64,000 nucleotides of DNA. It comes from Thermoanaerobaculia bacterium. Lineage in GTDB: Bacteria > Acidobacteriota > Thermoanaerobaculia > UBA5066. The stretch's first letter is position 1, and each line of letters begins with the position of its first letter. Below the pieces are notes generated by a model. That model was given only the letters and a program-made list of their open reading frames with translations. It had not been told where the DNA came from and searched no databases. The DNA is taken from NCBI GenBank assembly GCA_022071945.1, contig JAJVIN010000020.1, forward strand, positions 106,794 through 170,793, written 5' to 3'. Shown in pieces: positions 29,897-43,052 of the stretch. Position numbers and translations under genes: made by a program.

Positions 29897-30040
29897 CCGC
29901 GCCCAGGGGATCCAACCCCCAGAGTCACCGCCCCCGTGAGAGAGGCGCGTTCCTTTTCAAGAAGAAAGTCCCCTGCCCGCAAATCCAGAGTGCTCCCTTC
30001 CACGTATGACGAAGCAGTTCTCTGGGACCGGGAGGATTTC

Positions 30041-30442
30041 GTGATCGATCCAAAGATCGAGACGGTGAAGCGTGTCTACTCCGCCTTCGCTTCGGGAGAC
30101 GTTGCCGCGATTCTGACGGAACTGAACGAAGACGTTGTCTGGCAAGTAGATGCCGACCCGTCCGGAGTTCCCTGGTACGGCGTTCACTCCGGAAAGGCAC
30201 AGGTCGCGAAGTTCTTCCTGGCCGTCTCCACGTCGGCTCGAGTCACCCGGTTCGAACCGTTGTCCTTCGCCTGCAACGAAAGCGAGGTCTTTGCGGTCTT
30301 GGAGTGCGAAGTCGAGATGAGCGCAACCGGCAAGCACGGCAGGATGCTGCTTCATCACTGGTGGGGATTCCGCGGAGGGAGAGTCGACCGATTTCACGGC
30401 TCGGAGGACTCGGCGCTGACTGCGCAACTGCTCACTCCCTGA
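30041..30442 (+). CDS. SnoaL-like / NTF2-fold protein, copy 1
   Basis: A 133-residue single-domain protein of the SnoaL-like NTF2 fold: an N-terminal helix (ETVKRVYSAFASGDVAAILTELNEDVVW), a strand with VPWYGVHSGKAQVAKFF and a C-terminal strand set ending in AQLLTP. Such cone-shaped folds bind small hydrophobic ligands, act as cyclases or isomerases, or have no known activity. GTG 30041 has GGGAGG upstream. A second copy of the same length lies at 31649-32050, so the two come from a local duplication. Confidence 0.78.
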   Translation: MIDPKIETVKRVYSAFASGDVAAILTELNEDVVWQVDADPSGVPWYGVHSGKAQVAKFFLAVSTSARVTRFEPLSFACNESEVFAVLECEVEMSATGKHGRMLLHHWWGFRGGRVDRFHGSEDSALTAQLLTP

Positions 30443-31378: not shown

Positions 31379-31648
31379 CCGGGTTCGGCCCGCGATTCAG
31401 GTTGAAGGGGCGAGGTCCAGGAGGTTCGGGGGGAAGGAAGTACGGTGCGCGTGGAGTCTCTTCTCGCGCAGCCTGCGGCGGCCATCGCACGGCTGCGTGA
31501 ATGTGACTCCGATCCCTGGAGAGAAATCCACCGGTTCATGGGGAATCTGCAGGAGATCTCTCCTGGAAGGTGTCTCGAATCCACTGATCCAGCAGGCGTC
31601 GCCGGTCCGTACCGCAGGGAAACACTCCCGAAGAGCAAGGAGAACACT

Positions 31649-32050
31649 GTGAGTAACCCGAATGTCGAGACGGTACAACGAATCTACGCGGCCTTCGGCC
31701 GAGGCGACGTCGAGGCGATCCTCGCCGAGCTGACCGACGACGTGGACTGGTCTTCGGAGGCCTCTTCCACGGAGGCTCCCTGGTGGGGAGCCCACCGTGG
31801 GAAGGCAGAAGTTCCCAGGTTCTTCCAGGCACTTGCCAGCACGATCGAGGTGACCGAGTTCACTCCACTCGCCTTCGCTTCCAACGACACCGACGTCTTC
31901 GCGGTCATCCGGTTCGCATCAAAGGTCACCGCGACGGGCAAGAGCGGTGCGATGGACCTGCACCACCGGTGGGAGTTCCGGGACGGGAAGGTGTGCCGGT
32001 ACAGGGGCACCGAGGACACGATCCTGACCGCGAGCCTGCTCGCGCCCTGA
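31649..32050 (+). CDS. SnoaL-like / NTF2-fold protein, copy 2
   Basis: A 133-residue paralogue of the protein at 30041-30442, sharing the layout ETVQRIYAAFGRGDVEAIL at the N terminus, APWWGAHRGKAEVPRFF in the middle and ASLLAP at the end. GTG 31649 has CAAGGAG directly upstream. The 270 bases before it (31379-31648) are open in the same frame but carry no ribosome site and no recognisable domain, so I leave them out. Function unknown; ligand binding or isomerase-like activity is possible. Confidence 0.78.
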   Translation: MSNPNVETVQRIYAAFGRGDVEAILAELTDDVDWSSEASSTEAPWWGAHRGKAEVPRFFQALASTIEVTEFTPLAFASNDTDVFAVIRFASKVTATGKSGAMDLHHRWEFRDGKVCRYRGTEDTILTASLLAP

Positions 32051-32150: not shown

Positions 32151-32717
32151 TCAGGGAGACGTCCGATCGCCCTCGCTCGCCGGATCGACTCCGAACTCGT
32201 CCCGGTCGCTCGACACCGAGAGGATCATCCCGCCCGTCTCCGAATACGTCCCGGTCTCGACCGTGCCCTTTTCCGACCGGCAGTAATCACCCGCGCGGAG
32301 CAGGACACCGTTGACCCACACGGTCCCCTCGAGGACGTAGACCTCTTCCCTGCCGCCGTGCCGGTGCGACGGATAGGTTGTTCCCGGCCCGAACCGGACG
32401 AGCTTCGTCGAGATCCCTTTCTCCTCGTCCCGGAAGAGGAGCTTGACCTCGAGGCCAGGCAAGGGTGTCGGCTTCCACGTTGCCTCGGCCGAACGGACAC
32501 CGACGACTCCCGGTTTCGGGAAGAACGAGCCCTCCGGATGTTCCGCGGCCTCAACCGTCGACTCGGCCGCAAACCGTTCGAGAAGGCGCGCCTTCAGCCG
32601 CGCGGGGGGTGCAACGAGCGGAGCCGCGAGACCGAGTTCGGGAAGCTGCTCCGCAATGTCGCCGGCGCGACGCGGCGTGGAATCGATTGCGGCGGGTGGA
32701 TTCCCTTTCCCTCTCAT
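32151..32717 (-). CDS. ChrR-type cupin anti-sigma factor lacking the zinc motif
   Basis: The 188-residue protein resembles the ChrR family of anti-sigma factors. Residues about 20-60 have the LAAPLVAPPARLKARLLERF segment common to anti-sigma N-terminal regions, but the H-x3-C-x2-C zinc site of ChrR is absent. Residues about 85-170 form a cupin with YPSHRHGGREEVYVLEG and LLRAGDYCRSE; His-x-His-x4-Glu would bind a metal and could sense oxidants or small metabolites. The ATG overlaps the sigma-factor stop (ATGA), so the two are coupled. The pair ends the microcompartment operon. Confidence 0.82.
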   Translation of the reverse strand: MRGKGNPPAAIDSTPRRAGDIAEQLPELGLAAPLVAPPARLKARLLERFAAESTVEAAEHPEGSFFPKPGVVGVRSAEATWKPTPLPGLEVKLLFRDEEKGISTKLVRFGPGTTYPSHRHGGREEVYVLEGTVWVNGVLLRAGDYCRSEKGTVETGTYSETGGMILSVSSDRDEFGVDPASEGDRTSP

Positions 32718-33283
32718 GCCAGCCTTCCTCCCACCACCGGCTCGAGCCACTCTCTCAGGTGTGCCATCGCGAGCCTGAGTCTCGACTTGGCCGTTCCAAG
32801 CGGAAGCTGCGTTCTCTCGGCGATCTCCGAGTGGCTCAGCCCCTCGAAGTACGCGAGTTCGACGACCAGGCGCTGCTCCTCGGAGAGGCGGCCAAGAGCT
32901 TCTCGCACCCGGCGTGCCCGCTGGGAGAGCGCGCTCGACTCCTCGGGAGAGGCGGCCTGATCGGCAATCGCGTCCATCAACTCGAGGCCGTGATCGACTC
33001 GCCTCGCCCCGTGCGACCGGATCCTGTCGATGGCGCGCGAACGGGTCATGTTGAGAAGCCAGCCGATCACGTCTCCGCGCGCCCGGTCATAGCGCGAAGC
33101 CTGCCGCCAGACCTGTGAATAGACGTCCAGGGTGACCTCCTCGGCGTCGGCTGGATGCTGGAGGATCCTCAGGGCCAGGCTGTAGACCGCTCGGTTCGTC
33201 GCGTCGTACAGCAGCTCGAGGACCGCCGAGTCGCCCGCCGCCAGACGACATACGTAGTCAGAGAGCTCGTCGGTTCTCGTCAC
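32714..33283 (-). CDS. ECF RNA polymerase sigma factor, end of microcompartment operon
   Basis: A 189-residue extracytoplasmic-function sigma factor of the SigK/ChrR-associated type. Region 2 spans about 25-95 (RILQHPADAEEVTLDVYSQ and GWLLNMTRSRAIDRIR), and region 4 spans about 125-180 (LSEEQRLVVELAYFEGLS and GTAKSRLRLAMAHLR). Its GTG start lies only 8 bases after the stop of the last shell gene; GGAG is 14 bases upstream, so translation may rely on coupling. It is followed by the cupin anti-sigma gene. This placement suggests the sigma factor senses the state of the compartment pathway and may drive its operon. Confidence 0.88.
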   Translation of the reverse strand: MTRTDELSDYVCRLAAGDSAVLELLYDATNRAVYSLALRILQHPADAEEVTLDVYSQVWRQASRYDRARGDVIGWLLNMTRSRAIDRIRSHGARRVDHGLELMDAIADQAASPEESSALSQRARRVREALGRLSEEQRLVVELAYFEGLSHSEIAERTQLPLGTAKSRLRLAMAHLREWLEPVVGGRLA

Positions 33284-33291
33284 CCTGGAAA

Positions 33292-33588
33292 TCAGTTCTC
33301 CAGGCGAGAGCTCTCCGGAGCCGCGTCGACGCCGTCAACGATCCCGACGATGAGCGACCGGACCGGAGCGGACGGATCCCCGATGATCTGACGCGCGGAG
33401 TTCCCCTCGTCCTCGATCAGAACCGTTTGCCCCTCCCCGGCTCCCACCGTGTCCACGGCCACGATGTACTTGTCGCCGTCGAACGACCCATCGGGCAGGA
33501 TCGCCGCCACGATCAGTTGCTTCTTCCCGCTGTAGAACGGATGCTGGATCGTCGAAACGACCGTCCCGATCACGCGCCCCAGGATCAT
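33292..33588 (-). CDS. BMC pentameric vertex protein (EutN/CcmL), copy 3
   Basis: A 98-residue EutN/CcmL-type shell protein. It starts MILGRVIGTVVSTIQHPFYSG and continues with KKQLIVAAILPDG and AVDTVGAGEGQTVLI, the conserved beta-barrel core; the C-terminal segment IVGIVDGVD closes the fold. Five copies cap one vertex of the polyhedral shell. Its ATG overlaps the stop of the preceding vertex gene by four bases. Three different vertex proteins in one locus suggest mixed or alternative pentamers. Confidence 0.92.
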   Translation of the reverse strand: MILGRVIGTVVSTIQHPFYSGKKQLIVAAILPDGSFDGDKYIVAVDTVGAGEGQTVLIEDEGNSARQIIGDPSAPVRSLIVGIVDGVDAAPESSRLEN

Positions 33589-33872
33589 CGCTTTCTCCCC
33601 TCGTCCGAGACCGCGTGCTGGTCGACGATCCCGACGATGGCGTGGTCGACCGGGATGAACCACGGATCGTGGAGAAGCGCCGCCTCGCGCGAGGCTTCCC
33701 ACGTCACGAGATCTCCTGAAGAGGCCTGGGCAGAGGCGTCCGTGGCGACGAAGGGCTCCCCGTCGTCACGAAGATCGGCGGTCAAGGGCCTCACGATCAG
33801 GAGCTTCAGCCCCTTCATCGCCTCGGGCTTGATCGTGGCAACCATCGTTCCGATCACGCGCCCGAGTTTCAT
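33585..33872 (-). CDS. BMC pentameric vertex protein (EutN/CcmL), copy 2
   Basis: A 95-residue vertex protein with MKLGRVIGTMVATIKPEAMKG, LKLLIVRPL, a central acidic insertion (LRDDGEPFVATD) and HAIVGIVDQH at the end. The usual GAGEGE-type turn is replaced by ASSGDLVTW, so it is the most divergent of the three copies. It overlaps both neighbours by four bases (BMC-T upstream and vertex copy 3 downstream), which fits tight stoichiometric coupling. Confidence 0.88.
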   Translation of the reverse strand: MKLGRVIGTMVATIKPEAMKGLKLLIVRPLTADLRDDGEPFVATDASAQASSGDLVTWEASREAALLHDPWFIPVDHAIVGIVDQHAVSDEGRKR

Positions 33873-34459
33873 CCCCGGAACTCCCTGAAGAACCGGCTCC
33901 CCGAGCCGAGCGCCGACATCACGACGGCATCCGCGCGCGGGATGAGAGCCACAGAAGCATCGGGAGCCAGGACGCGAGCGATGTCGAGGGCGGCCTCGAC
34001 GTCATGAGTCTCTCCCCACAGAGTGGCGATCGCCTTACCGCCGAGCCCGTCGCCCACGCGGAGTTCCACCAGCTCGACGAGAGCCCCCTTCAGCGCCCCA
34101 TCGACGGCCCCGACGAGCGCAGGTGGCGTCTCGGTCTGAATCACCGCGAGAGTGTCGCCCGGGGCGGGCCACCGAATGGTGCCGCCCGAGAGTGCCGGGA
34201 GGATCCGGGCCTCGGCATACGGGAGGAAAACCTCCCCCGCCAGATGCGTCCCCGCTGTCCGCAGGGCCCGCCTCCAGGCCGTCTCCACAGGCGCCACCTC
34301 GCCCGCGAACAGGATGAGATATCGGCCGCAGTGGATCGTTCCCGTCTGAACGACGGTGACCTCGGCCTCCTTGACGAGAGCGTCGAGCACCCTGAGCCCG
34401 GCGGGAATCTCATCGAGAAGGAGCATCGAAAGTGCAGGACCGGCGGCACTTGTCGTCAT
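33869..34459 (-). CDS. BMC-T tandem-domain trimeric shell protein
   Basis: A 196-residue protein with two BMC domains in tandem: residues about 8-90 (GLRVLDALVKEAEV and GRYLILFAGEVAPVETA) and about 103-190 (IQTETPPALVGAVDGALKGA and GGKAIATLWGETHDVEAA). Trimers of such proteins mimic a hexamer in the shell facet and often gate larger metabolites or stack in two layers. It resembles the trimer-forming proteins of Haliangium-type shells. It starts 7 bases after the aldehyde dehydrogenase stop and overlaps the next vertex gene. Confidence 0.88.
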   Translation of the reverse strand: MTTSAAGPALSMLLLDEIPAGLRVLDALVKEAEVTVVQTGTIHCGRYLILFAGEVAPVETAWRRALRTAGTHLAGEVFLPYAEARILPALSGGTIRWPAPGDTLAVIQTETPPALVGAVDGALKGALVELVELRVGDGLGGKAIATLWGETHDVEAALDIARVLAPDASVALIPRADAVVMSALGSGSRFFREFRG

Positions 34460-34466
34460 CGCCGCC

Positions 34467-35942
34467 TCACACGATCCTGAAGTGGTCGACGAGCGTGCAT
34501 CGGCGCCAGCGTGAGAACGATCGAGGCGTCGTCAGACCTTCGCCCGTCGGAGACGCGATCGTGAAAGACGTGTACCCCTCGCCCCGATAGCCGAGCCCGG
34601 CCAGGCACGGCCCGTTCTTGACGAAGATCGAGCAGTTGCACCGCCGGGCCATCTCGGAGAGCGCCGAGATGTCGGTCGAGTGCATCGACGCGGTGTGGTA
34701 GCAGGCCCCCTCGCAGGCGACGGCCAGATCGATGGCGTCGTGAACTGTCCGGACTCTCGTCAGGGGCAGGACCGGCATCATCTGTTCTGTCCAGATGAGC
34801 GGGTGCTCGTTCGGCACCTCGACCAGGATCGTCCGGATCTCGAGGCCGGCCGAGATGCCGAGTTCCTTCAAGATCACCGAGGCGTCCTTGCCGACGAACT
34901 TCTTGTTGACGACCGCGTGGCCCCGGGGACCCGCTCCCTTCTCGAAGATCACCTTCTCCAGCCTCGGGAGGTCGGCGGGAGGAAGCTCGAAGGCACCCGC
35001 CTTCCTCATCGAGAGCTTCAGCTGATCCGCGATGGAGTCGACGGCGATGACTTCCTTCTCGTCGATGCAGATCACGTTGTTGTCGAAGGAGTGGCCGTAG
35101 ACGATATCCCGCCCGGCCTTCTCGATGTTGGCGGTCTGGTCGACGATGGCGGGGGGGTTCCCGGGACCTGCGCAGATCGCGCGCTTGCCCGAGTTCATCG
35201 CCGCCGCCACCACCGCGCCTCCGCCCGTCACGACGAGCAGCCGGACTCTCGGATGTTTCATCAGCTCGCCGGCCGAGGCGATCGTCGGCTCGGCCACGCA
35301 GGTGATGACGTTCGCCGGGCCGCCCGCGCGCACGATCGCCGCGTTGAGGAGCCTCACGGTCGAGGCGGAGACGCGTTTGGCGGAGGGGTGCGTGTTGAAG
35401 ACGACCGTGTTTCCGGCCGAGATCATGCCGATGGCATTACAGATGATCGTGGAGGACGGGTTCGTCACCGGTGTGATCGCGCCGATCACGCCAAAGGGCG
35501 CCGGCTCGATCAGGACGAGGCCGTGATCCCCGCTGATCGCTTGCGGCGTCAGCTCCTCGGGCCCAGGGGTCTTCTCGGTGACGAGAAGGTTCTTCAGGAC
35601 CTTGTCCTCGACGCGGCCGAGCCCGGTCTCCTCGACCGCCTCGACCGCCAGAACGCGGGCGGCGGCTCGCATCGCCTCGCGCATCGAGGCGATGATGTCG
35701 TGCCGCTTCTTCAAACCGAGGGCGTCGAGCGCCCGGAAAGCCGCGGTCGCGGCCGCCACCGCATCATCCAGGGAGCGGAAGATGCCGTCGCCCTGGCTAC
35801 CGGGCGAGGCTGGGGGGGACGTTTCTGGCGGCGTTCCCCTTGTGGAAGACGACGGTGCCGCTGCCGGGCTCGCCAGGATCTCCCGCGCCAGTACCTCCGC
35901 CAGCCGCCGGAGCTGATCAGGATTCATCGGTCCCTGACTCAC
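34467..35942 (-). CDS. BMC-associated CoA-acylating aldehyde dehydrogenase (PduP-like)
   Basis: The 491-residue enzyme oxidises a short aldehyde with CoA and NAD+ to acyl-CoA. The first 25 residues (NPDQLRRLAEVLAREILAS) form an amphipathic helix separated from the enzyme by a Pro/Ser/Thr-rich linker, the layout of an encapsulation peptide that targets cargo to the shell. The catalytic Cys292 lies in NNVICIDEKEV, Asn161 in TPVTNPSS, and the C terminus CTLVDHFRIV matches the PduP group. In this locus the aldehyde is most likely acetaldehyde from the aldolase encoded first in the operon. It lies between a vertex gene and the BMC-T gene. Confidence 0.93.
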   Translation of the reverse strand: MSQGPMNPDQLRRLAEVLAREILASPAAAPSSSTRGTPPETSPPASPGSQGDGIFRSLDDAVAAATAAFRALDALGLKKRHDIIASMREAMRAAARVLAVEAVEETGLGRVEDKVLKNLLVTEKTPGPEELTPQAISGDHGLVLIEPAPFGVIGAITPVTNPSSTIICNAIGMISAGNTVVFNTHPSAKRVSASTVRLLNAAIVRAGGPANVITCVAEPTIASAGELMKHPRVRLLVVTGGGAVVAAAMNSGKRAICAGPGNPPAIVDQTANIEKAGRDIVYGHSFDNNVICIDEKEVIAVDSIADQLKLSMRKAGAFELPPADLPRLEKVIFEKGAGPRGHAVVNKKFVGKDASVILKELGISAGLEIRTILVEVPNEHPLIWTEQMMPVLPLTRVRTVHDAIDLAVACEGACYHTASMHSTDISALSEMARRCNCSIFVKNGPCLAGLGYRGEGYTSFTIASPTGEGLTTPRSFSRWRRCTLVDHFRIV

Positions 35943-35961
35943 GGCTCACTCCGCGGCACGG

Positions 35962-36279
35962 TCAGACGTCTCCGTATCCATGTTCGGCGGAGTGCTTCTC
36001 GAAAAGCTGCGTGCCGCCGATCTCCCACGAGTCGACGATTGCCATGACGACGGCATCGCAGGGACGGTCTTTCGTCACCTCGGTCTGCCGCGCGGAAGAG
36101 CCGGACGCATAGAGGACGTACTCTCCGACCCCGCAGCCGACCGCGTCGTTGGCCACGACGAAACCCCCTTCCTTGAGAGTCTCGGGGTTGACCTGCCGGA
36201 GCAGCAGGAACTTCAGGCCCGCGATCTTGGGGTCCTTGCGGGTGGCCACCACGGTTCCGACGACCTTCGCCAGAAGCAT
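35962..36279 (-). CDS. BMC pentameric vertex protein (EutN/CcmL), copy 1
   Basis: A 105-residue vertex protein. It starts [21 protein letters not shown], then [34 protein letters not shown] and [11 protein letters not shown], which is the standard EutN/CcmL pattern including the Gly-rich turn. It carries a longer C-terminal tail than the other two copies. It sits 53 bases downstream of the hexamer gene and 19 bases before the aldehyde dehydrogenase. Confidence 0.93.
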
Positions 36280-36332
36280 GGGTCACCGCCTTCCCGGCGC
36301 GAGAAGGGCCAGAGACACGATCGGCTCCCGCC

Positions 36333-36653
36333 TTACTTCTTGCCGCCGCGCGACTCGATCTCCTCTGCGACCTCGGCCTTGCGGCCGAGCGGGAGAACGA
36401 GGTCCACGTTGACGTGGGGACGGGCGATGATGTGAGTCGCGACGACTTCGCCGACGCGCGAGGCGCCGTTCTGTCCGGCGTCGATGGCGGCCTTCACCGC
36501 GGCGACGTCGCCCCGGATGATGGCGGTGACGTAGCCGCCGCCCGTCTTCTCGTATGAGACGAGCTCGACCTTCGCCGCCTTCACCATGGCATCAGAGGCT
36601 TCCACCATTGCCGCGAACGAGCGGCACTCGATCATTCCCAGAGCTTCGGCCAT
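36333..36653 (-). CDS. BMC-H hexameric shell protein (PduA-like)
   Basis: A 106-residue single BMC domain protein and the only hexamer-type shell protein in the window, so it presumably forms most of the facets. Conserved segments are [44 protein letters not shown] and [11 protein letters not shown]. The pore loop reads TGGGY, giving a glycine where PduA has serine, so the central pore lacks the usual hydroxyl ring. A small conserved C-terminal extension is Lys/Glu-rich. A palindromic hairpin lies upstream in the 154-base gap to the preceding shell gene. Confidence 0.95.
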
Positions 36654-36716
36654 AACAGTTCTTCCTTTCGGGTGGCAGTTGGAGAGTTCATTGGTTTCGT
36701 GAGGAACGCCTCGAAG

Positions 36717-36740
36717 CCTTCTCCCGCTTTCGGGAGAAGG
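36717..36740. repeat. Palindromic hairpin, REP-like, ahead of the BMC-H gene
   Basis: CCTTCTCCCG (36717-36726) and CGGGAGAAGG (36731-36740) pair perfectly over 10 bp around a 4-base loop. The following bases (GTGTCGCGGAGCGCCGGATGAGGG) make the whole resemble the dispersed REP-type palindromes of other bacteria. It lies inside the operon between the second BMC-T gene and BMC-H, where it could shape mRNA processing so that the hexamer message is more stable. Confidence 0.55.
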
Positions 36741-36806
36741 TGTCGCGGAGCGCCGGATGAGGGCCCCGGGCGAACGGCGAAGGCGTGAGGATCACCGCTG
36801 GCCCTC

Positions 36807-37427
36807 TCATTTGCCCGGTCTCCCGGCGAGTCCCTCGATCGCCTTCTCGGCCACCGGACGGGCGACGTCGATGTCGCGGTCGGCCCCCGCCAGGTAGACG
36901 CGGCCGAAGGCCCCGAACGAGACGATCTCGAGGACCTTGATGTGAGCCGCCTTTTCCGCCTCGTTGGCGGCCAGCGCGGCATTGGCGGCCGGCTGGACTT
37001 CCAGGATATAGAGCGACTGCCCCGCCACGATCATGTGGCCGTGGCGCGTCCGGTTGATGAGCTGCGTCTGCCGGTCGTCGAGATGCCGGATCACGGTGGA
37101 CGAGAGGATCTCCGGCTTGATCCGGTCGGCTTCGGTCTTGCCGATCTCGGAGAGGATCGCCTCGCCCGCGCGCCGCACCTCGGCCTGCTGGTCGTGGTGG
37201 ATCTCGAGGAGGCCGTAGAGCCGCTCGACGATCTGCATCCCGGGTGTCACTGCCGTCGCCTTCACGGCGATGTCGGTGAGCCTGTTGATCGAAATGCCGG
37301 GCGAGACCTCGATGAAGAGCGAGCTCTGTCCGGCGATCGGCAGAAAGCCGCGGGCGACGGTCCCGAGGAACGCGGCGTGCTGCTTCTGGAGGGAATCGAG
37401 AAAGACGTAGCTTCGGAGGTCGATCAC
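36807..37427 (-). CDS. BMC-T-like tandem shell protein, paralogue 2
   Basis: A 206-residue protein beginning with GTG. It has two BMC-like halves: about 15-100 ([17 protein letters not shown] and [16 protein letters not shown]) and about 120-206 ([24 protein letters not shown] and [19 protein letters not shown]). It shares most conserved positions with the neighbouring paralogue encoded at 37431-38066 and differs clearly from the BMC-T at 33869. The start follows the paralogue's stop after 3 bases. Probably a facet trimer or pseudohexamer. Confidence 0.82.
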
Positions 37428-37430
37428 GTC

Positions 37431-38066
37431 TCAGTCCCTCCGGCCCTTCTGAGCCTCGCGGCCCGTCAACGACTCGATCGCCTGGATCGCGGCAACGGAA
37501 GCGACGTCGATGTCCTTCTGCTCGCCGCCGAGGTAGACACGGCCGAAGGCTCCCGTCATCCTCACGTCGATCACGTTGATCTCCGCCGCCTTCTCCGCCT
37601 CGTTGGCCGCGAAGGCCGCGTAGCCCGCGGGCTCGACCTCGAGAATGTAGAGCGACTCCCCGGCGACCAGCATCATTCCCTGCCGGTTTCGGTTGATCAG
37701 CTGGACCTGCAGGTCCTCCACGTGCCGGATGACCTGCGAGGAGAGGACGCGCGGCTTGATGCGGTCCGTCTCCTTCAAGGCGAGCGCGTCGAGGATCGAA
37801 TCGCCCGCGCGCCTCACGTCCGCCTGGGACGGACTGTGGATCTCGAGCATTCCGTAGAGCCGCTCGACGACCTGCATTCCGGGCCGGACGTCCGTCGCCT
37901 TGACGGCGACGTCGGTGACGCGGTTGATCTCGATCCCGGGCGAGATCTCGACGATGAGAGACGCCTCGTACGCCACGGGCAAGAAGCCTCGCGCGACCGT
38001 CCCGATGTAGGCCGCCACCTGCGGCTGCATGGCGTCGAGGTAAACGAAGCTCCTCAGTTCCGCCAT
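37431..38066 (-). CDS. BMC-T-like tandem shell protein, paralogue 1
   Basis: A 211-residue tandem shell protein, [16 protein letters not shown] at the start, with halves around [17 protein letters not shown] and [24 protein letters not shown] and a C-terminal [16 protein letters not shown]. It is a close paralogue of the downstream protein. The ATG overlaps the aldolase stop by one base. Two such paralogues may form a mixed trimer or a double-layered pore; the function of the pair is not established by sequence. Confidence 0.82.
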
Positions 38067-39478
38067 CAGTAGGCTCCCTTCCCGTCTGCTGAAGAGGTGG
38101 ACTGTCCCTTCGACTCCTTGACGATCTTCACGCCGACCGATGCTCCGATCCTCGTGGCGCCGGCCGCGATCATCTTCTGCGCGTCGGAGGCGGAGCGAAT
38201 CCCTCCAGACGCCTTCACGCCGAGCTTGTGATCGACGGCCTCGGCCATCAGCGCGACGTCGTGGGCCGTCGCCCCGCCCGTCGAGAATCCGGTCGAGGTC
38301 TTCACGAAGTCCGCGCGGGCATTTCTCGCCGCCACGCACGCGGCGACCTTTTCCTGATCGGTCAAAAGCGAGGTTTCGAGGATGACCTTCAGGATCGCTC
38401 CCCCGTCGTGCGCGGCTTCCGCCACGAGGCGGATGTCGTCCTCGACGTAGCGGACATCTCCGGACTTCAGGGCACCGATGGCGAGGACCATGTCGACCTC
38501 GCGCGCCCCGTCACGAATCGCGCGGCGCGCCTCGAGCGCCTTGATCTCCTTCGGCGTCGCTCCGAGCGGGAAGCCCACCACGGTGCAGACGAGGGGCCGC
38601 GCACCCGCGAGCCGCTGAGCCGCGCGCTTGACGTGGATCGGGTTCACGCAGACCGAGGCGAACCCGAACTGCGCCGCCTCGGAACAGAGCTTGTCGATCT
38701 CGGCATAGGTCGCATCCGCCTTGAGGAGCGTGTGGTCGATGTACTGGGCCAGATCCTTCGGGACCTCTCCCACCCCTGGCGCGGAGGAGATCCGGCAGCC
38801 GGGACCGACACACTCGATCATCGAGCGGACGGCCGGGGTGCACTTCGTGGCGCAGTGTCCGCCGATCGGGCATCCCGCGCAGGAGCCAGAGGCCGCTCCC
38901 GCGCAGGTGGAGGCGCCGAGAAGGGATGGATTCGCGGCCAGGATCGCGGAGATCCGGCCGACGAGCAGTTCGAAATCGGGAGAGGGGGAAGGGCTTGCGC
39001 TCATCGCACTCCTGGTTGTCGAGAGGCGCGGGGCATCCAGCGCATCGATCTGGGCGACCCGCCGTTTGTGCCTCTCGACCGTGCACTCGGTGGTCAGAAA
39101 GACGTCCACGATCTTCAGGGCGAGGTCTTCCGAAAGGTACGAGGCCCCGAGCGTCAGGACGTTGGCGTCGTTGTGCTCGCGGGCATTCTTCGCGGTCGAA
39201 AGGTCGAAGGCCATCCCCGCGCGGACCCCGGGCACCTTGTTGGCGACCATGCCGGAACCGATTCCCGCCCCGTCGACGACGACGCCTCGGAAGGCCTGCC
39301 CGGAAGCGACGGCCTCGGCCGCGGCGCGCGCGAAGACCGGGTAGTCACACGCCTCGGTGGAGTGGGTCCCGACGTCCAGAACATCGAACCCCGAGGCCGA
39401 CAGGTGCTTCTCGATGGCCTCTTTGAGCGCGTAACCGCCATGGTCCGAGCCAACGACGACCCGCCTCTTCGCGGTCAT
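38066..39478 (-). CDS. RpiB-like isomerase fused to deoxyribose-phosphate aldolase (DeoC), BMC cargo
   Basis: This 470-residue fusion is the first gene of the microcompartment operon. Residues 1-150 are an RpiB/LacAB sugar-phosphate isomerase domain ([36 protein letters not shown]). The catalytic Cys of E. coli RpiB (CGTGIG) is replaced by Asp69 (DGAGIG). Residues 165-187 ([16 protein letters not shown]) form an amphipathic helix resembling an encapsulation peptide. Residues 192-228 hold seven cysteines. Residues about 240-455 are class I DERA with Schiff-base Lys393 (VKTSTG), Lys422 (VKASGG) and Asp329. DERA splits deoxyribose 5-phosphate into glyceraldehyde 3-phosphate and acetaldehyde, the substrate of the dehydrogenase in this operon. 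Confidence 0.9.
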
Positions 39479-39650: not shown

Positions 39651-39962
39651 TCAGCCCTTCTTTCCTTCCACCGAGTCCGAGACCTTCAGGAACGCCTCGT
39701 ACGGCATCGCCGGCCAGCTCTCCGCGGAGATGGCCCCGTGCTCCCTGGAAAGCAGGGAAACGCGGAAGGCGGTGTCGTCGGAGGGGGCCTCGTAGATGTC
39801 CATGAAGTCGTACGGGCCGAGGAGCGCGTAGTGAGCCACCCACTTGATCCCGGGGCAGAGGGACTCGACCTTCTTCATCCAGTCGTGTCCTGTTTCCCGG
39901 CGTCCGGAGGTGCCCTGGATGGCCCGGGGGGAGAGCTTCGTCATCAGAACGTAGGTTGCCAT
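39651..39962 (-). CDS. GYD-domain protein
   Basis: The 103-residue protein has the GYD family pattern: MATYVLMTKLSPRAIQ at the start, WVAHYALLGPYDFMDIYEAPSD in the middle, which contains the Gly-Tyr/Pro-Asp core, and a C-terminal acidic helix. The family is a ferredoxin-like small fold of unknown function. GGGAGG lies upstream of the ATG. Its stop is 172 bases before the start of the microcompartment operon on the same strand, so read-through is possible but not evident. Confidence 0.8.
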   Translation of the reverse strand: MATYVLMTKLSPRAIQGTSGRRETGHDWMKKVESLCPGIKWVAHYALLGPYDFMDIYEAPSDDTAFRVSLLSREHGAISAESWPAMPYEAFLKVSDSVEGKKG

Positions 39963-40089
39963 TGCGGACCTCCCGTGCTCGATGTCGTCAGGCTTTGCTG
40001 GCGCTTCCAGACTACACCTTCGAGACCGGGTTGGGTCTCTCGAGATGACTCGATCCGGCGCATACTGCGGTTTTGCGGAGGAACGTTCC

Positions 40090-41106
40090 ATGCCCAGAAT
40101 CACTTTCTCCACGGTCGAGAGATCCATCGAGGCGGACGAGGGGACCTGGATGTACGAGGTGGCCCAGGAAGCGAAGGCCGGGATCCCGTTTGCCTGCAAG
40201 GCCGGAGCGTGTGGCGCCTGTGCCACTCAGGTCCTCGAGGGAGTGGAGCATTTCGGAGAGGCCGGGGCCCGCGAGGTCCGGACCCTGACGGCGCACAAGC
40301 TCGACCCGGCCACGCACCGGCTGCCGTGTCTGGCCGAGGTTCATGGCGATGTCGTGTTCGGCAGGCCCGCGAAGGCTCCCGAGAAGGGCGCGGCGCTCCA
40401 GATTCACGAGGCGGTTGTCGAGTCCTACCGGCCGCTGAACCTGACTGTCGCGGAGGTCCGGTTCTTCGTGGAGACGGCGTCGTTCGCGTTCAAGCCCGGC
40501 CAGTACATGATCTTCCACGTCCCCGGAAGCGAGAAACCGCTGCGGCGCTCGTACTCGATCAGCACCCCGCCGTCGGACAAGCGCCACTTCGAGGTGTGCG
40601 TCCGCTCGGTCGCGGGAGGGCTCGGCTCCAACTACGTCCACCGCCTGCGGCCAGGAATGAAGGTCAAGGTGGAAGGCCCCGTCGGCGAGTTCATCCTGCG
40701 GGAGAAGTCGCAGAAGAACATCCTGATGATCGCGACGGGGACGGGCATCGCTCCCATCAAGGGCATGCTCCTGCACCTCCTCGACACGCACAGCAAGAGA
40801 AAGATCCGGCTCTTCTTTGGCCTCCGGCACGACTCTGACCTCTTCTACACGGACCTCTTCCGGGGCCTCGCCGCCCACTACCCCGAGTTCCGCCACCAGA
40901 TCATCCTGTCCTCGCCGGACCCGGCGCACTGGGCCGGACCCCGGGGACACGTGACCGATCTCATCGAGCAGCAGGTGAGCCCGGCGGACGCCGCAACGAC
41001 GGAGGTGTATCTTTGCGGCGGCATTTCGATGATCGAATCATCGAAGGAGTGCCTCCTGAGGAAGGGCATCCCCCAGGACAGCATCTTCCACGAGAACTTC
41101 TACTGA
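40090..41106 (+). CDS. 2Fe-2S ferredoxin - FAD/NAD(P) oxidoreductase
   Basis: A 338-residue electron-transfer protein. The N-terminal plant-type ferredoxin domain has Cys36-x4-Cys41-x2-Cys44 and Cys80 as 2Fe-2S ligands. Next comes the FAD-binding domain with RRSYSIST, and then the NAD(P)-binding domain with ATGTGIAPIKGML, ending YLCGGISMIESSKE. This is the layout of reductase components of oxygenases and of NqrF-like proteins; it moves electrons from NAD(P)H to the cluster and on to a partner. ATG with GGAGGAAC upstream. No oxygenase is encoded nearby, so the partner is unknown. Confidence 0.9.
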   Translation: MPRITFSTVERSIEADEGTWMYEVAQEAKAGIPFACKAGACGACATQVLEGVEHFGEAGAREVRTLTAHKLDPATHRLPCLAEVHGDVVFGRPAKAPEKGAALQIHEAVVESYRPLNLTVAEVRFFVETASFAFKPGQYMIFHVPGSEKPLRRSYSISTPPSDKRHFEVCVRSVAGGLGSNYVHRLRPGMKVKVEGPVGEFILREKSQKNILMIATGTGIAPIKGMLLHLLDTHSKRKIRLFFGLRHDSDLFYTDLFRGLAAHYPEFRHQIILSSPDPAHWAGPRGHVTDLIEQQVSPADAATTEVYLCGGISMIESSKECLLRKGIPQDSIFHENFY

Positions 41107-41120
41107 GAGGGGACATCCGG

Positions 41121-43052
41121 GTGCAGACCGTTCGCGCCGCCACGGTGACGCTTGTACTTCTCGTTTTCTCGCTGGCCGCCCCGGCGCAGTCTCAGAAGAA
41201 GCTCCTCCTCGTCTCGTGGGACGGAGCGCCCGACTGGGTGGTGGACCGGCTTCTCGAGGAAGGCAAGCTGCCCGGCGTCGCGCGGCTGTCCAGGGAGGGT
41301 GTTCGCGCCGAGTCCATGATCGCCGGATTCCCTTCCAAGACCGCTGTCGGTCACGCGGCAATCTTCACGGGTTGCTGGGGGGTCACGAACGGGATCACGG
41401 GGAATCTGATCCCGATGCTGCCTCGCTCCTCTCACACGGTCCTCGAGGCCGCGTCAGGTTTCGCGTCATCGTCGCTGCGGGCGGAACCGATCTACGTGGC
41501 TGCCGCCAAGGCTGGACGCCGGGTCGCCGTCCTGTCGGCCACGCAGTCGTATCCGCCCGACGTTCACCTGGCCACCCTAAGGGCGGCCGGGGTCAAGGAC
41601 GGCAGCCTCCTCTCATTCTCAGGTTTCGAGGGGCTCGTCGCCCCCCTTTCGTTGATTCGAGCGGACGCCCTCAGACCTCCCGGCGCCGGCTGGACCGGCC
41701 TCCCGAAGCACAAAGGGAAGCTCTTGGAGGCCGAGGTCAAGGTCGCGGAAGCCGAGTTCTTCGCCCTTCTTTATGACGATTCCTCTGACCCCGCGAAGGG
41801 TTTCGACACCGTCTTGATACGGCAAGGAAGCCGGGACGCTTCCCGCGCGAAGGCCGCGGCCACGCTCAAACCCAGGGCGGCATCTCCGGACGCTTCGGCC
41901 TGGAGAGGCCCGTTCCGTGTGACACGGCAGAATCTCTCAGGCAATACCTTCTTTCGCCTCTTCCGGCTTTCCCCGGACGCACGCACGTTCGAGCTCTACG
42001 TGCGCGCCGCCCACGCGATCCAGGGGTCAGCCCCCCAGCAGGAGTTCCTGGCCTATCTCAACGCTTACGACGGTTTCCACGACGACAACTTCGCCGCCTA
42101 CGGCCGGGGACAGCTGGGACCGACGCTCTGGCAGGGTGGCGATGGCGAGGCGGAGAGGCGGGTGATCGAGGGCGTTCGATTCGATGTGGAAGAAAGGATC
42201 CGGGGAGTCCGCTACGCCTTCGACACGTGGCACCCGGACGTCCTCCTGCACTACACACCCACCACGGACAGCGCCGGCCATGTCTGGATCGGGATCCTCG
42301 ACCCGAAGAGCCCCAGCCACGACCCGGCCCTGGCTGCGAAGATCTGGCCGTTCTATTCACAAGTCTTCCAGCTGGAGGACCAGTGGCTGTCGGCCATGAT
42401 GGAGGTCGCGGGTCCCGAGGTCGCCATCGCCCTCGTCAGCGATCACGGGATGCAGGGCGTCGCCCGGCTCTTCAACCCCAACGCCGTGCTGGCCAAGGCC
42501 GGGCTCTACGCCGAAGGGAAAGAGGGGTCGCCCGATCTCTCCAAGACGAAGGTCCTCTCGCCCCGCTGGAGTGACTTCGGGCTGGTCATCAACGGCACGG
42601 ACTGGAAGGGCGGCATCGTCCCGCCCCAGGAGCGGGAAGAAGCCCTGGCGCGCGCGGCGGAGGCCCTGCTCGCCGCCCGGGATCCAGAGAACGGCCGTCC
42701 CATCGTCACCGCGGTCCTGCCCGCTGCCGCTCTCGGCGAGATGGGCCTCGGAGGTCCAGCCGGCAGCGACCTCTATCTGGACGTCGCCAACGGCTACTAC
42801 CCGTCTTCCGCCTCTTCGCGAGACGTCGTCATGAAAGGGCGATCGCCGATTGGCTCGGGGGAACACGGGTTCTTCCCGCAGCGGCGCGAGATGCACGCCA
42901 TCTTCTTTCTCGCGGGTCCCGGAATCGCAAAAGGGAGAGCCGTGCCGCCGGTCCGCCAGATCGACGTCTTCCCCACCCTCGCCCACTACCTCGGGATCCC
43001 GTCCCCCCAGACGGTGAGCGGACAGATCCTCGGCGGCGTCTTCGCGCCGTGA
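41121..43052 (+). CDS. Exported alkaline-phosphatase-superfamily phosphodiesterase
   Basis: The 643-residue protein starts at GTG with a signal peptide (VTLVLLVFSLAAPAQS). It belongs to the type I phosphodiesterase / nucleotide pyrophosphatase family: metal-binding Asp34 in SWDGAPDWV, nucleophile Thr74 in FPSKTAVGHA, then TDSAGHVWIG, SDHGMQG and GEHGFFP as further metal ligands. An insertion at about 180-370 is typical of large members. It would hydrolyse phosphodiester or pyrophosphate bonds in the periplasm; the substrate is unknown. It follows the reductase gene by 14 bases and may be cotranscribed. Confidence 0.88.
   Translation: MQTVRAATVTLVLLVFSLAAPAQSQKKLLLVSWDGAPDWVVDRLLEEGKLPGVARLSREGVRAESMIAGFPSKTAVGHAAIFTGCWGVTNGITGNLIPMLPRSSHTVLEAASGFASSSLRAEPIYVAAAKAGRRVAVLSATQSYPPDVHLATLRAAGVKDGSLLSFSGFEGLVAPLSLIRADALRPPGAGWTGLPKHKGKLLEAEVKVAEAEFFALLYDDSSDPAKGFDTVLIRQGSRDASRAKAAATLKPRAASPDASAWRGPFRVTRQNLSGNTFFRLFRLSPDARTFELYVRAAHAIQGSAPQQEFLAYLNAYDGFHDDNFAAYGRGQLGPTLWQGGDGEAERRVIEGVRFDVEERIRGVRYAFDTWHPDVLLHYTPTTDSAGHVWIGILDPKSPSHDPALAAKIWPFYSQVFQLEDQWLSAMMEVAGPEVAIALVSDHGMQGVARLFNPNAVLAKAGLYAEGKEGSPDLSKTKVLSPRWSDFGLVINGTDWKGGIVPPQEREEALARAAEALLAARDPENGRPIVTAVLPAAALGEMGLGGPAGSDLYLDVANGYYPSSASSRDVVMKGRSPIGSGEHGFFPQRREMHAIFFLAGPGIAKGRAVPPVRQIDVFPTLAHYLGIPSPQTVSGQILGGVFAP

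Follow-up and report, generated by a model that had tools for sequence, protein, structure and literature searches.

A 64,000-nucleotide stretch from the genome of a Thermoanaerobaculia bacterium (contig JAJVIN010000020.1, positions 106,794 to 170,793; the whole stretch is called the window below) carries a bacterial microcompartment (BMC) operon whose first gene encodes an RpiB-like domain and a DeoC-type aldolase (DERA) in one chain. The catalytic residues of the RpiB half are replaced, and sequence together with analogy suggests, on odds that we judge to be evenly balanced, that this half no longer isomerises but opens the furanose ring of 2-deoxyribose 5-phosphate (DR5P) for the aldolase to which it is fused, acting as an “openase”. 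The newest part of the finding is that the catalytic site of DeoC-linked RpiBs is replaced. An initial annotation of the window had viewed the RpiB half as an ordinary isomerase, a view at odds with the altered residues (Asp69, Ala71); its choice of DR5P as the most likely substrate is upheld.

The catalytic site of DeoC-linked RpiBs

We aligned 84 DeoC-linked RpiBs (34 fused to DeoC, 50 split from it as separate genes) with 30 housekeeping RpiBs, which are encoded away from any fusion or pair. Position 69 is Asp in every one of the 84 DeoC-linked proteins, as opposed to Cys in 25 of the 30 housekeeping proteins and Gly, in a loop like that of the M. tuberculosis enzyme, in the other 5. At position 71, Ala occurs in 80 of the 84, and the housekeeping set has Thr (22/30) or Ser (8/30). 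Ser75 is likewise found in 84/84 versus 0/30, an invariance that was partly built in by the search pattern. Alignments with PDB entries (the five displayed of 22 matches) place Asp69 opposite the catalytic Cys of solved RpiBs. Held against the hallmarks of ribose-5-phosphate isomerase B, the window protein has neither the catalytic Cys nor the M. tuberculosis Glu (Asp69 and, at the Glu position, Ser), nor the Thr or Ser two residues past the Cys (Ala71). On the RpiB tree, the housekeeping proteins form one side of a branch with a support of 80.

The remainder of the pocket is largely retained. All 84 DeoC-linked RpiBs keep His102, Asp45, Tyr46, Pro47, Arg136 and Arg140, 83 keep Asp12 and His13, and 82 keep His137. 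The window protein accordingly has the ring-opening His and the Arg/His phosphate site (His102, Arg136, His137, Arg140), though its Arg113 is replaced by Ser. This conservation bears on the idea that the RpiB half has no catalytic part and serves as a scaffold, setting the oligomeric state of DERA and its packing in the lumen. Replacement of the catalytic Cys and of the Thr/Ser would suit such a role, as would a fusion that fixes stoichiometry; a pocket kept to this degree is, however, unlike a dead site, and the Asp is also held in the 50 of 84 rows in which RpiB is a separate gene. We therefore regard a scaffold as quite improbable.

Arg113 itself is kept in only 10 of the 84 DeoC-linked RpiBs, versus 30/30 housekeeping proteins. 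Its frequent loss would be compatible with a triose isomerase, for which a carboxylate base is suited. Consistent with this idea, one RpiB variant has been suggested to act on smaller substrates (PMC3212906), and an Atribacteria locus of the sugar-phosphate-utilising (SPU) microcompartment type encodes a triosephosphate isomerase (PMC4207490). The ring-opening His, present in 84/84, points instead to a cyclic substrate, and a triose isomerase appears very unlikely.

Work on characterised RpiBs assigns the role of proton-transfer base to the Cys, the shuttling of a proton between O1 and O2 to the Thr, and ring opening to the His; exchange of the Cys for Ser or Ala abolishes activity, and the T67A mutant of LacAB works about 20-fold more slowly (PMC4783025, PMC3755991, PMC3212906). 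Thr67 of LacAB contacts O2, and Cys65 lies 3.3 A from O1 (PMC3755991). The RpiB half of the window protein resembles RpiB and LacAB isomerases in fold, in its ring-opening His and in the greater part of its pocket, and differs from them in having Asp for the catalytic Cys and Ala for the Thr/Ser relay. An Asp at the equivalent of position 69 is also found in LacA (4lfk_A alignment). This loop of the LacAB pocket is supplied by LacB, and the LacA loop is not among the pocket residues; both points speak for a ring-opener here. The vacant second site, LacA's own, is however filled by bulky residues (PMC3755991), unlike the pocket of the window protein. The parts of the SPU publications available to us (PMC4207490, PMC8217296) do not mention a change in the RpiB active site. 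More generally, we found no report of a Cys-to-Asp substitution in RpiBs of microcompartments in the open-access literature, which is weak evidence of absence since subscription journals fell mostly outside this scope.

Proposed ring opening and the case for an isomerase

DR5P has no 2-hydroxyl group and, for this reason, an aldose-ketose isomerase cannot act on it. The lysine of DERA bonds linear DR5P only, the furanose form is favoured, and ring opening may affect the kinetics (PMC8403123). Ala71 and Asp69 both fit an opener of a 2-deoxy ring, since the Thr of the isomerases contacts an O2 that DR5P lacks and the Cys lies near O1.

In the mechanism that we propose, the shell would assemble from the BMC proteins of the operon, and cargo would be loaded through a helix in the linker of the fusion and an N-terminal helix of the aldehyde dehydrogenase. 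DR5P would enter through the CcmP-like tandem-domain (BMC-T) shell proteins, His102 as the acid at O4 and Asp69 as the base at O1 would open the furanose ring, the linear aldehyde would be handed to the fused DERA, and acetaldehyde would be converted to acetyl-CoA inside the shell. The ring-opening step itself, for which we draw on sequence and published structures, has about even odds. We are a little less confident of the wider proposal of a new enzyme pair, in which an RpiB-fold protein that has abandoned isomerisation (Cys to Asp, Thr to Ala) and is dedicated to opening DR5P is fused or co-encapsulated with DERA and the short-lived linear aldehyde is passed on in a closed shell. Within the open-access literature searched, this would be the first RpiB-fold openase and the first openase inside an organelle.

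A ring-opening protein beside a Schiff-base aldolase is known from sialate catabolism, where YhcH provides the aldolase NanA with its sugar in open form; its authors call this role the first of its kind and expect further cases (PMC8141875). YhcH differs in being an unrelated metalloprotein that is neither encapsulated nor fused, and its function has been tested, whereas that of the window RpiB is predicted. The window genome also encodes a pyrimidine-nucleoside phosphorylase, a cytidine deaminase and a purine-type phosphorylase within about 4 kb (G000:C1 163196-167155, L228), a cluster that is a plausible source of deoxyribose phosphate.

Several points weigh against a ring-opener. A carboxylate can serve as an isomerase base, as does Glu75 of M. 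tuberculosis RpiB, albeit at another position (PMC4783025, PMC3755991, PMC3212906), and Asp69 might isomerise another substrate, because the pocket is largely intact, unlike the second site of LacAB. Substrate binding has changed, given how few of the proteins keep the phosphate-binding Arg113, and spontaneous opening of the furanose may be fast enough to make an openase unneeded. The RpiB domain of the window passes the broader isomerase models NF004051 and TIGR00689. On TIGR01120 it scores 134.5, under the equivalog cut-off of 138.65; three Asp-type (D-type) RpiBs encoded remote from DeoC score 131.0, 145.6 and 157.7, so the model fails to separate them. As two of these three pass, the shortfall of the window domain is weak evidence. 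The aligned set was enriched for relatives of the window protein, and 4 of its 84 rows (L174-L177) were reached via the Asp pattern. One D-type RpiB-DeoC pair (L174, in G330) lies in a genome without a match to the vertex protein BMC-P, the sole exception in the phylum sample described below. Finally, a phosphotransacylase (PTAC), which would account for CoA recycling, turned up in just 1 of 40 SPU genomes searched, and not in that of the window.

In one rival reading, the RpiB half still functions as an aldose-ketose isomerase with Asp69 as its base, in a compartment that handles ribose 5-phosphate or another sugar phosphate besides the DR5P derived from nucleic acids. Published surveys take the RpiB of SPU compartments to be an isomerase (PMC4207490, PMC8217296), and the retained pocket (Asp12, His13, His102, Arg136, His137, Arg140), the carboxylate base of the M. 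tuberculosis enzyme, the passing of NF004051 and TIGR00689 by the window domain and that of TIGR01120 by two of the three remote D-type RpiBs can all be read in its favour. Nevertheless, loss of the Cys to Ser or Ala is fatal in the characterised RpiBs, and here the Thr/Ser relay is lost too. The product of such an isomerase, ribulose 5-phosphate, is not a DERA substrate. The window genome, moreover, has its own separate Cys-type RpiB, which scores 178.8 on TIGR01120, whereas the fused domain falls short of the cut-off there. On balance we consider a working isomerase unlikely.

The fusion, Asp-type RpiB and their link to shells

Both Pfam domains of the fusion fall in a single 470-aa frame, LacAB_rpiB (E 5.8e-49) at residues 7-144 and DeoC (E 3.5e-17) at residues 244-452, and the predicted structure shows two confident domains joined by a low-confidence linker. 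An assembly error joining two genes is ruled out: the best 120 of 7999 scored proteins, the window's included, all carry both domains, and one of them is encoded on a Minicystis rosea contig of 16 Mb. Among the matches listed, several of the closest homologues with a name are from Thermoanaerobaculia (Acidobacteriota). The one-chain architecture given in the initial annotation is thus borne out; its statement that known sugar-phosphate compartments carry RpiB and DeoC as separate genes is not, nor is the novelty it saw in the fusion, which has been in print since 2014 for Marinimicrobia (PMC4207490) and is widespread (ten named phyla).

Among 60 related genomes, the fusion occupies the same operon slot in at least 15, and the best 20 places comprise 16 fused loci (the window's own included) and 4 split ones. 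A named collection, from which the best 80 of 586 relatives were taken (from many phyla, gathered with two peptide patterns of which one includes Ser75), adds 18 fused loci, 17 of these 18 with an assigned phylum and spanning ten phyla; with the 16 loci from the window genome and its relatives, this makes 34 fused loci. Duplicate stretches of loci already included (L001-L003, L104-L113) do not enter the counts. At least two shell genes lie near 33 of the 34, so that a wide occurrence of the fusion outside shell loci, which would have spoken against the annotation, was not seen; the remaining locus, L071, holds a partial fusion close to the end of a contig, in a genome with three BMC-P genes elsewhere. 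Split RpiB and DeoC genes occupy the same place in otherwise similar operons. Of 46 split pairs scored, 13 have no shell genes nearby. When the genomes of these pairs and that of L071 were searched, BMC-P was found elsewhere in 13 of 14, the exception being that of L055. Three BMC-P genes stand beside the RpiB-DeoC pair of L177.

Trees of a quick type were built, two short DeoC rows of 104 being dropped from the DeoC tree. On this tree (102 rows, 33 fused), the fusion needs one change, at a support of 38, versus three changes on the RpiB tree, and we did not adopt a single origin.

The link between D-type RpiB and shells was also surveyed in 396 genomes of the phylum, which were searched with a DNA pattern for [V/I/M]-DGAGIG and for BMC-P. 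The pattern occurred in 121 genomes and BMC-P in 164; both were present in 91, the pattern only in 30, BMC-P only in 73 and neither in 202 (n=396; Fisher p 1.4e-19). All 30 pattern-only genomes were followed up. Their 31 pattern places gave an RpiB at one place only, in G330, with an adjoining DeoC, and the other 30 of 31 places in these BMC-P-negative genomes gave no RpiB match; as a detector of RpiB, the DNA pattern was accordingly rejected as noisy. In a sample of 20 from the 91 genomes with both, 18 places were RpiB and two were not. For six of these 18, the fetched stretch contained no DeoC; one is encoded elsewhere in each of the six genomes, in G414 only at 43% identity.

A pattern-independent test covered 40 of the 73 BMC-P-only genomes. 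Among 25 DeoC loci fetched from them, 11 had an adjacent RpiB, with Asp in 10, an ambiguous residue in one (L193) and Cys in none; the stretches fetched for the remaining 14 showed no RpiB. The five fetched loci with RpiB only were all of the Cys type. We conclude that D-type RpiB tracks shells.

The three D-type RpiBs remote from DeoC (L230 6931-7767, L231 885-1658 and L233 7257-7889) have N-terminal extensions, and DeoC is encoded elsewhere in the same genomes. Some extensions of this kind begin in a helix-like manner and could be encapsulation signals.

The operon, its compartment type and its cargo

The nine genes are consecutive on the minus strand of the window, from 39478 to 33292 (Table 1), and the count of one hexamer (BMC-H), three BMC-T and three BMC-P proteins with two cargo enzymes agrees with the initial annotation by coordinates, Pfam and matches to solved structures. 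Seven of the eight intergenic gaps are below 60 bases and three gene pairs overlap by 1-4 bases, figures for which two gene starts were shifted inward from the open reading frame (ORF) coordinates; the nine genes are therefore likely to form a single operon. Searches with the BMC families revealed one shell locus in the genome, and the genome has three BMC-P genes.

Table 1. Genes of the microcompartment operon and the linker of the fusion, in window coordinates
Feature	Coordinates	Strand	Remarks
RpiB-DeoC fusion, 470 aa	38066..39478	-	RpiB-like domain residues 1-150 (Asp69, Ala71), linker 152-239, DERA domain 243-456
Linker of the fusion, residues 152-239	38762..39025	-	predicted helix 167-182, similar to an encapsulation peptide, followed by a Cys-rich stretch (7 Cys)
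BMC-T, CcmP / HO-5816-like, tandem domain	37431..38066	-	start set at MAELRSF
BMC-T, CcmP-like, tandem domain	36807..37427	-	NF053796 309.5 bits, under its 340 cut-off
BMC-H hexamer	36333..36653	-	Pfam BMC domain E 1.7e-29
BMC-P vertex protein	35962..36279	-	Pfam EutN_CcmL
CoA-acylating aldehyde dehydrogenase, EutE type, N-terminal amphipathic helix	34467..35942	-	NF011927
BMC-T, two BMC domains	33869..34459	-	best solved match 5dih, PduT-like proteins close behind
BMC-P vertex protein	33585..33872	-	Pfam EutN_CcmL
BMC-P vertex protein	33292..33588	-	start set at MILGRV within ORF 33292-33702; Pfam EutN_CcmL

EutN_CcmL matched the three BMC-P proteins at E 6.9e-23, 3.8e-19 and 6.3e-27, and the Pfam BMC domain matched two stretches of the 5dih-like BMC-T at E 8.1e-22. 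The other two BMC-T proteins reached 20.3 bits, under the Pfam cut-off of 24.5, and match solved CcmP and HO-5816 at E 2.6e-68 to 2.4e-77. The aldehyde dehydrogenase matched Aldedh at E 5.5e-33 and scored 643.9 bits (cut-off 403) on NF011927, which we take to be the EutE-type acylating group; the acylating type proposed by the initial annotation thus stands.

By its gene set the locus is nearly certainly an SPU microcompartment, since a pfam01791 aldolase and a pfam02502 RpiB-type protein occur together, with an aldehyde dehydrogenase and with BMC-H, BMC-T and BMC-P genes in the same locus. The type was named in 2014 from single-cell genomes for its DeoC-like aldolase, RpiB-like isomerase and aldehyde dehydrogenase (PMC4207490). 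A 2021 catalogue lists more than 280 SPU loci, which come from 26 phyla and fall into seven subtypes; common to them are pfam01791 and pfam02502, plus aldehyde dehydrogenase and shell genes (PMC8217296). The window locus matches this description, down to the fusion known from Marinimicrobia, and adds a further case to a known type; the fusion itself is not new. It differs in that no PduL was found in locus or genome; this PTAC was present in all SPU loci of 2014 except those of Marinimicrobia (PMC4207490), and the type therefore does not require it. A PduL-type PTAC was likewise not found in 39 of 40 SPU genomes searched, the window genome included (G000, G002, G003, G005, G008, G012, G031, G034 and G433-G464), and was present in G463. 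We rejected the idea that missing PduL sets the fusion clade apart, because split SPU genomes are also without it.

The shell of the Haliangium ochraceum (HO) microcompartment comprises a BMC-P triplet, one 5dih-like BMC-T and two HO-5816/CcmP-like BMC-T proteins, and the window operon has the same three elements. The two differ in that the main operon of the window contains the RpiB-DeoC fusion, whereas HO is described with the pfam01791 enzyme only, in some genomes encoded elsewhere (PMC8217296). The HO aldehyde dehydrogenase is closest to those of SPU5 and SPU7 in the 2021 catalogue (PMC8217296).

The DERA half of the fusion scores 257.7 on TIGR00126 (deoC; cut-off 117.3), and the fusion is the only DeoC in the window genome at E <= 1e-3. 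Asp329, Lys393 and Lys422, which we take by E. coli numbering to be the catalytic residues, are invariant in 38 aligned fusions, and the catalytic residues of DERA thus appear to be intact. Most of the linker has low confidence in the predicted structure, which shows one helix at residues 167-182 and another, shorter stretch of helix at 214-222. The position of the former matches that of an N-terminal helix-like stretch of split DeoCs, with the pattern LVExITREVL. By hydrophobic moment, the helix at the N terminus of the dehydrogenase comes third among 476 windows and the linker helix an unremarkable 164th among 455, so the putative encapsulation role of the latter is read from the conserved pattern and the predicted helix, not from the hydrophobic moment.

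Cys clusters, often CxxCxxCxxC or CxxCxxxCxxxC, lie between the presumed encapsulation helix and DERA in many phyla, both fused and split (L024, L025, L054, L065, L097 and others). Of 84 BMC-type DeoCs, 42 have at least three Cys, as do 13 of the 34 fusions, with 13 changes on the tree; 16 of 20 DeoCs without RpiB in their locus have at most two, and the other four (L074, L075, L077, L102) have four. The cluster is possibly a Zn or Fe-S site with a metal or redox role that is not universal. At these frequencies, a metal-binding linker was rejected as the main account and kept as an accessory lead.

Around the operon, an ECF (extracytoplasmic function) sigma factor and a ChrR-like cupin anti-sigma factor are encoded at 32151-33283 (minus strand), 8 bases past the last BMC-P gene and perhaps co-transcribed. 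Directly upstream of the fusion lies the gene of a GYD-domain protein (39651-40226, minus strand). A 2Fe-2S/FAD/NAD reductase (39982-41106, plus strand) is encoded divergently and is followed by a type I phosphodiesterase (41013-43052). We rejected the ECF/ChrR-like pair, the GYD protein and the reductase as parts of the system, as none was matched next to the operon in the ten related loci L104-L113, of which some are represented by short stretches. As a counterpoint for the sigma factor, an ECF match lies 243 bases past the last BMC-P gene in L090, and farther off in L027 and L097. Two SnoaL-like proteins that look alike (29936-30442 and 31445-32050, plus strand) lie about 1 kb apart and are paralogues by eye; a model was run for the second only.

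The swap of a catalytic residue in every one of the aligned DeoC-linked RpiBs makes the ring-opener reading directly and cheaply testable. If that reading is correct, it would account for the presence of an isomerase gene in such compartments, and it would extend the YhcH type of role, a ring-opener feeding an aldolase, to the catabolism of the DNA sugar.

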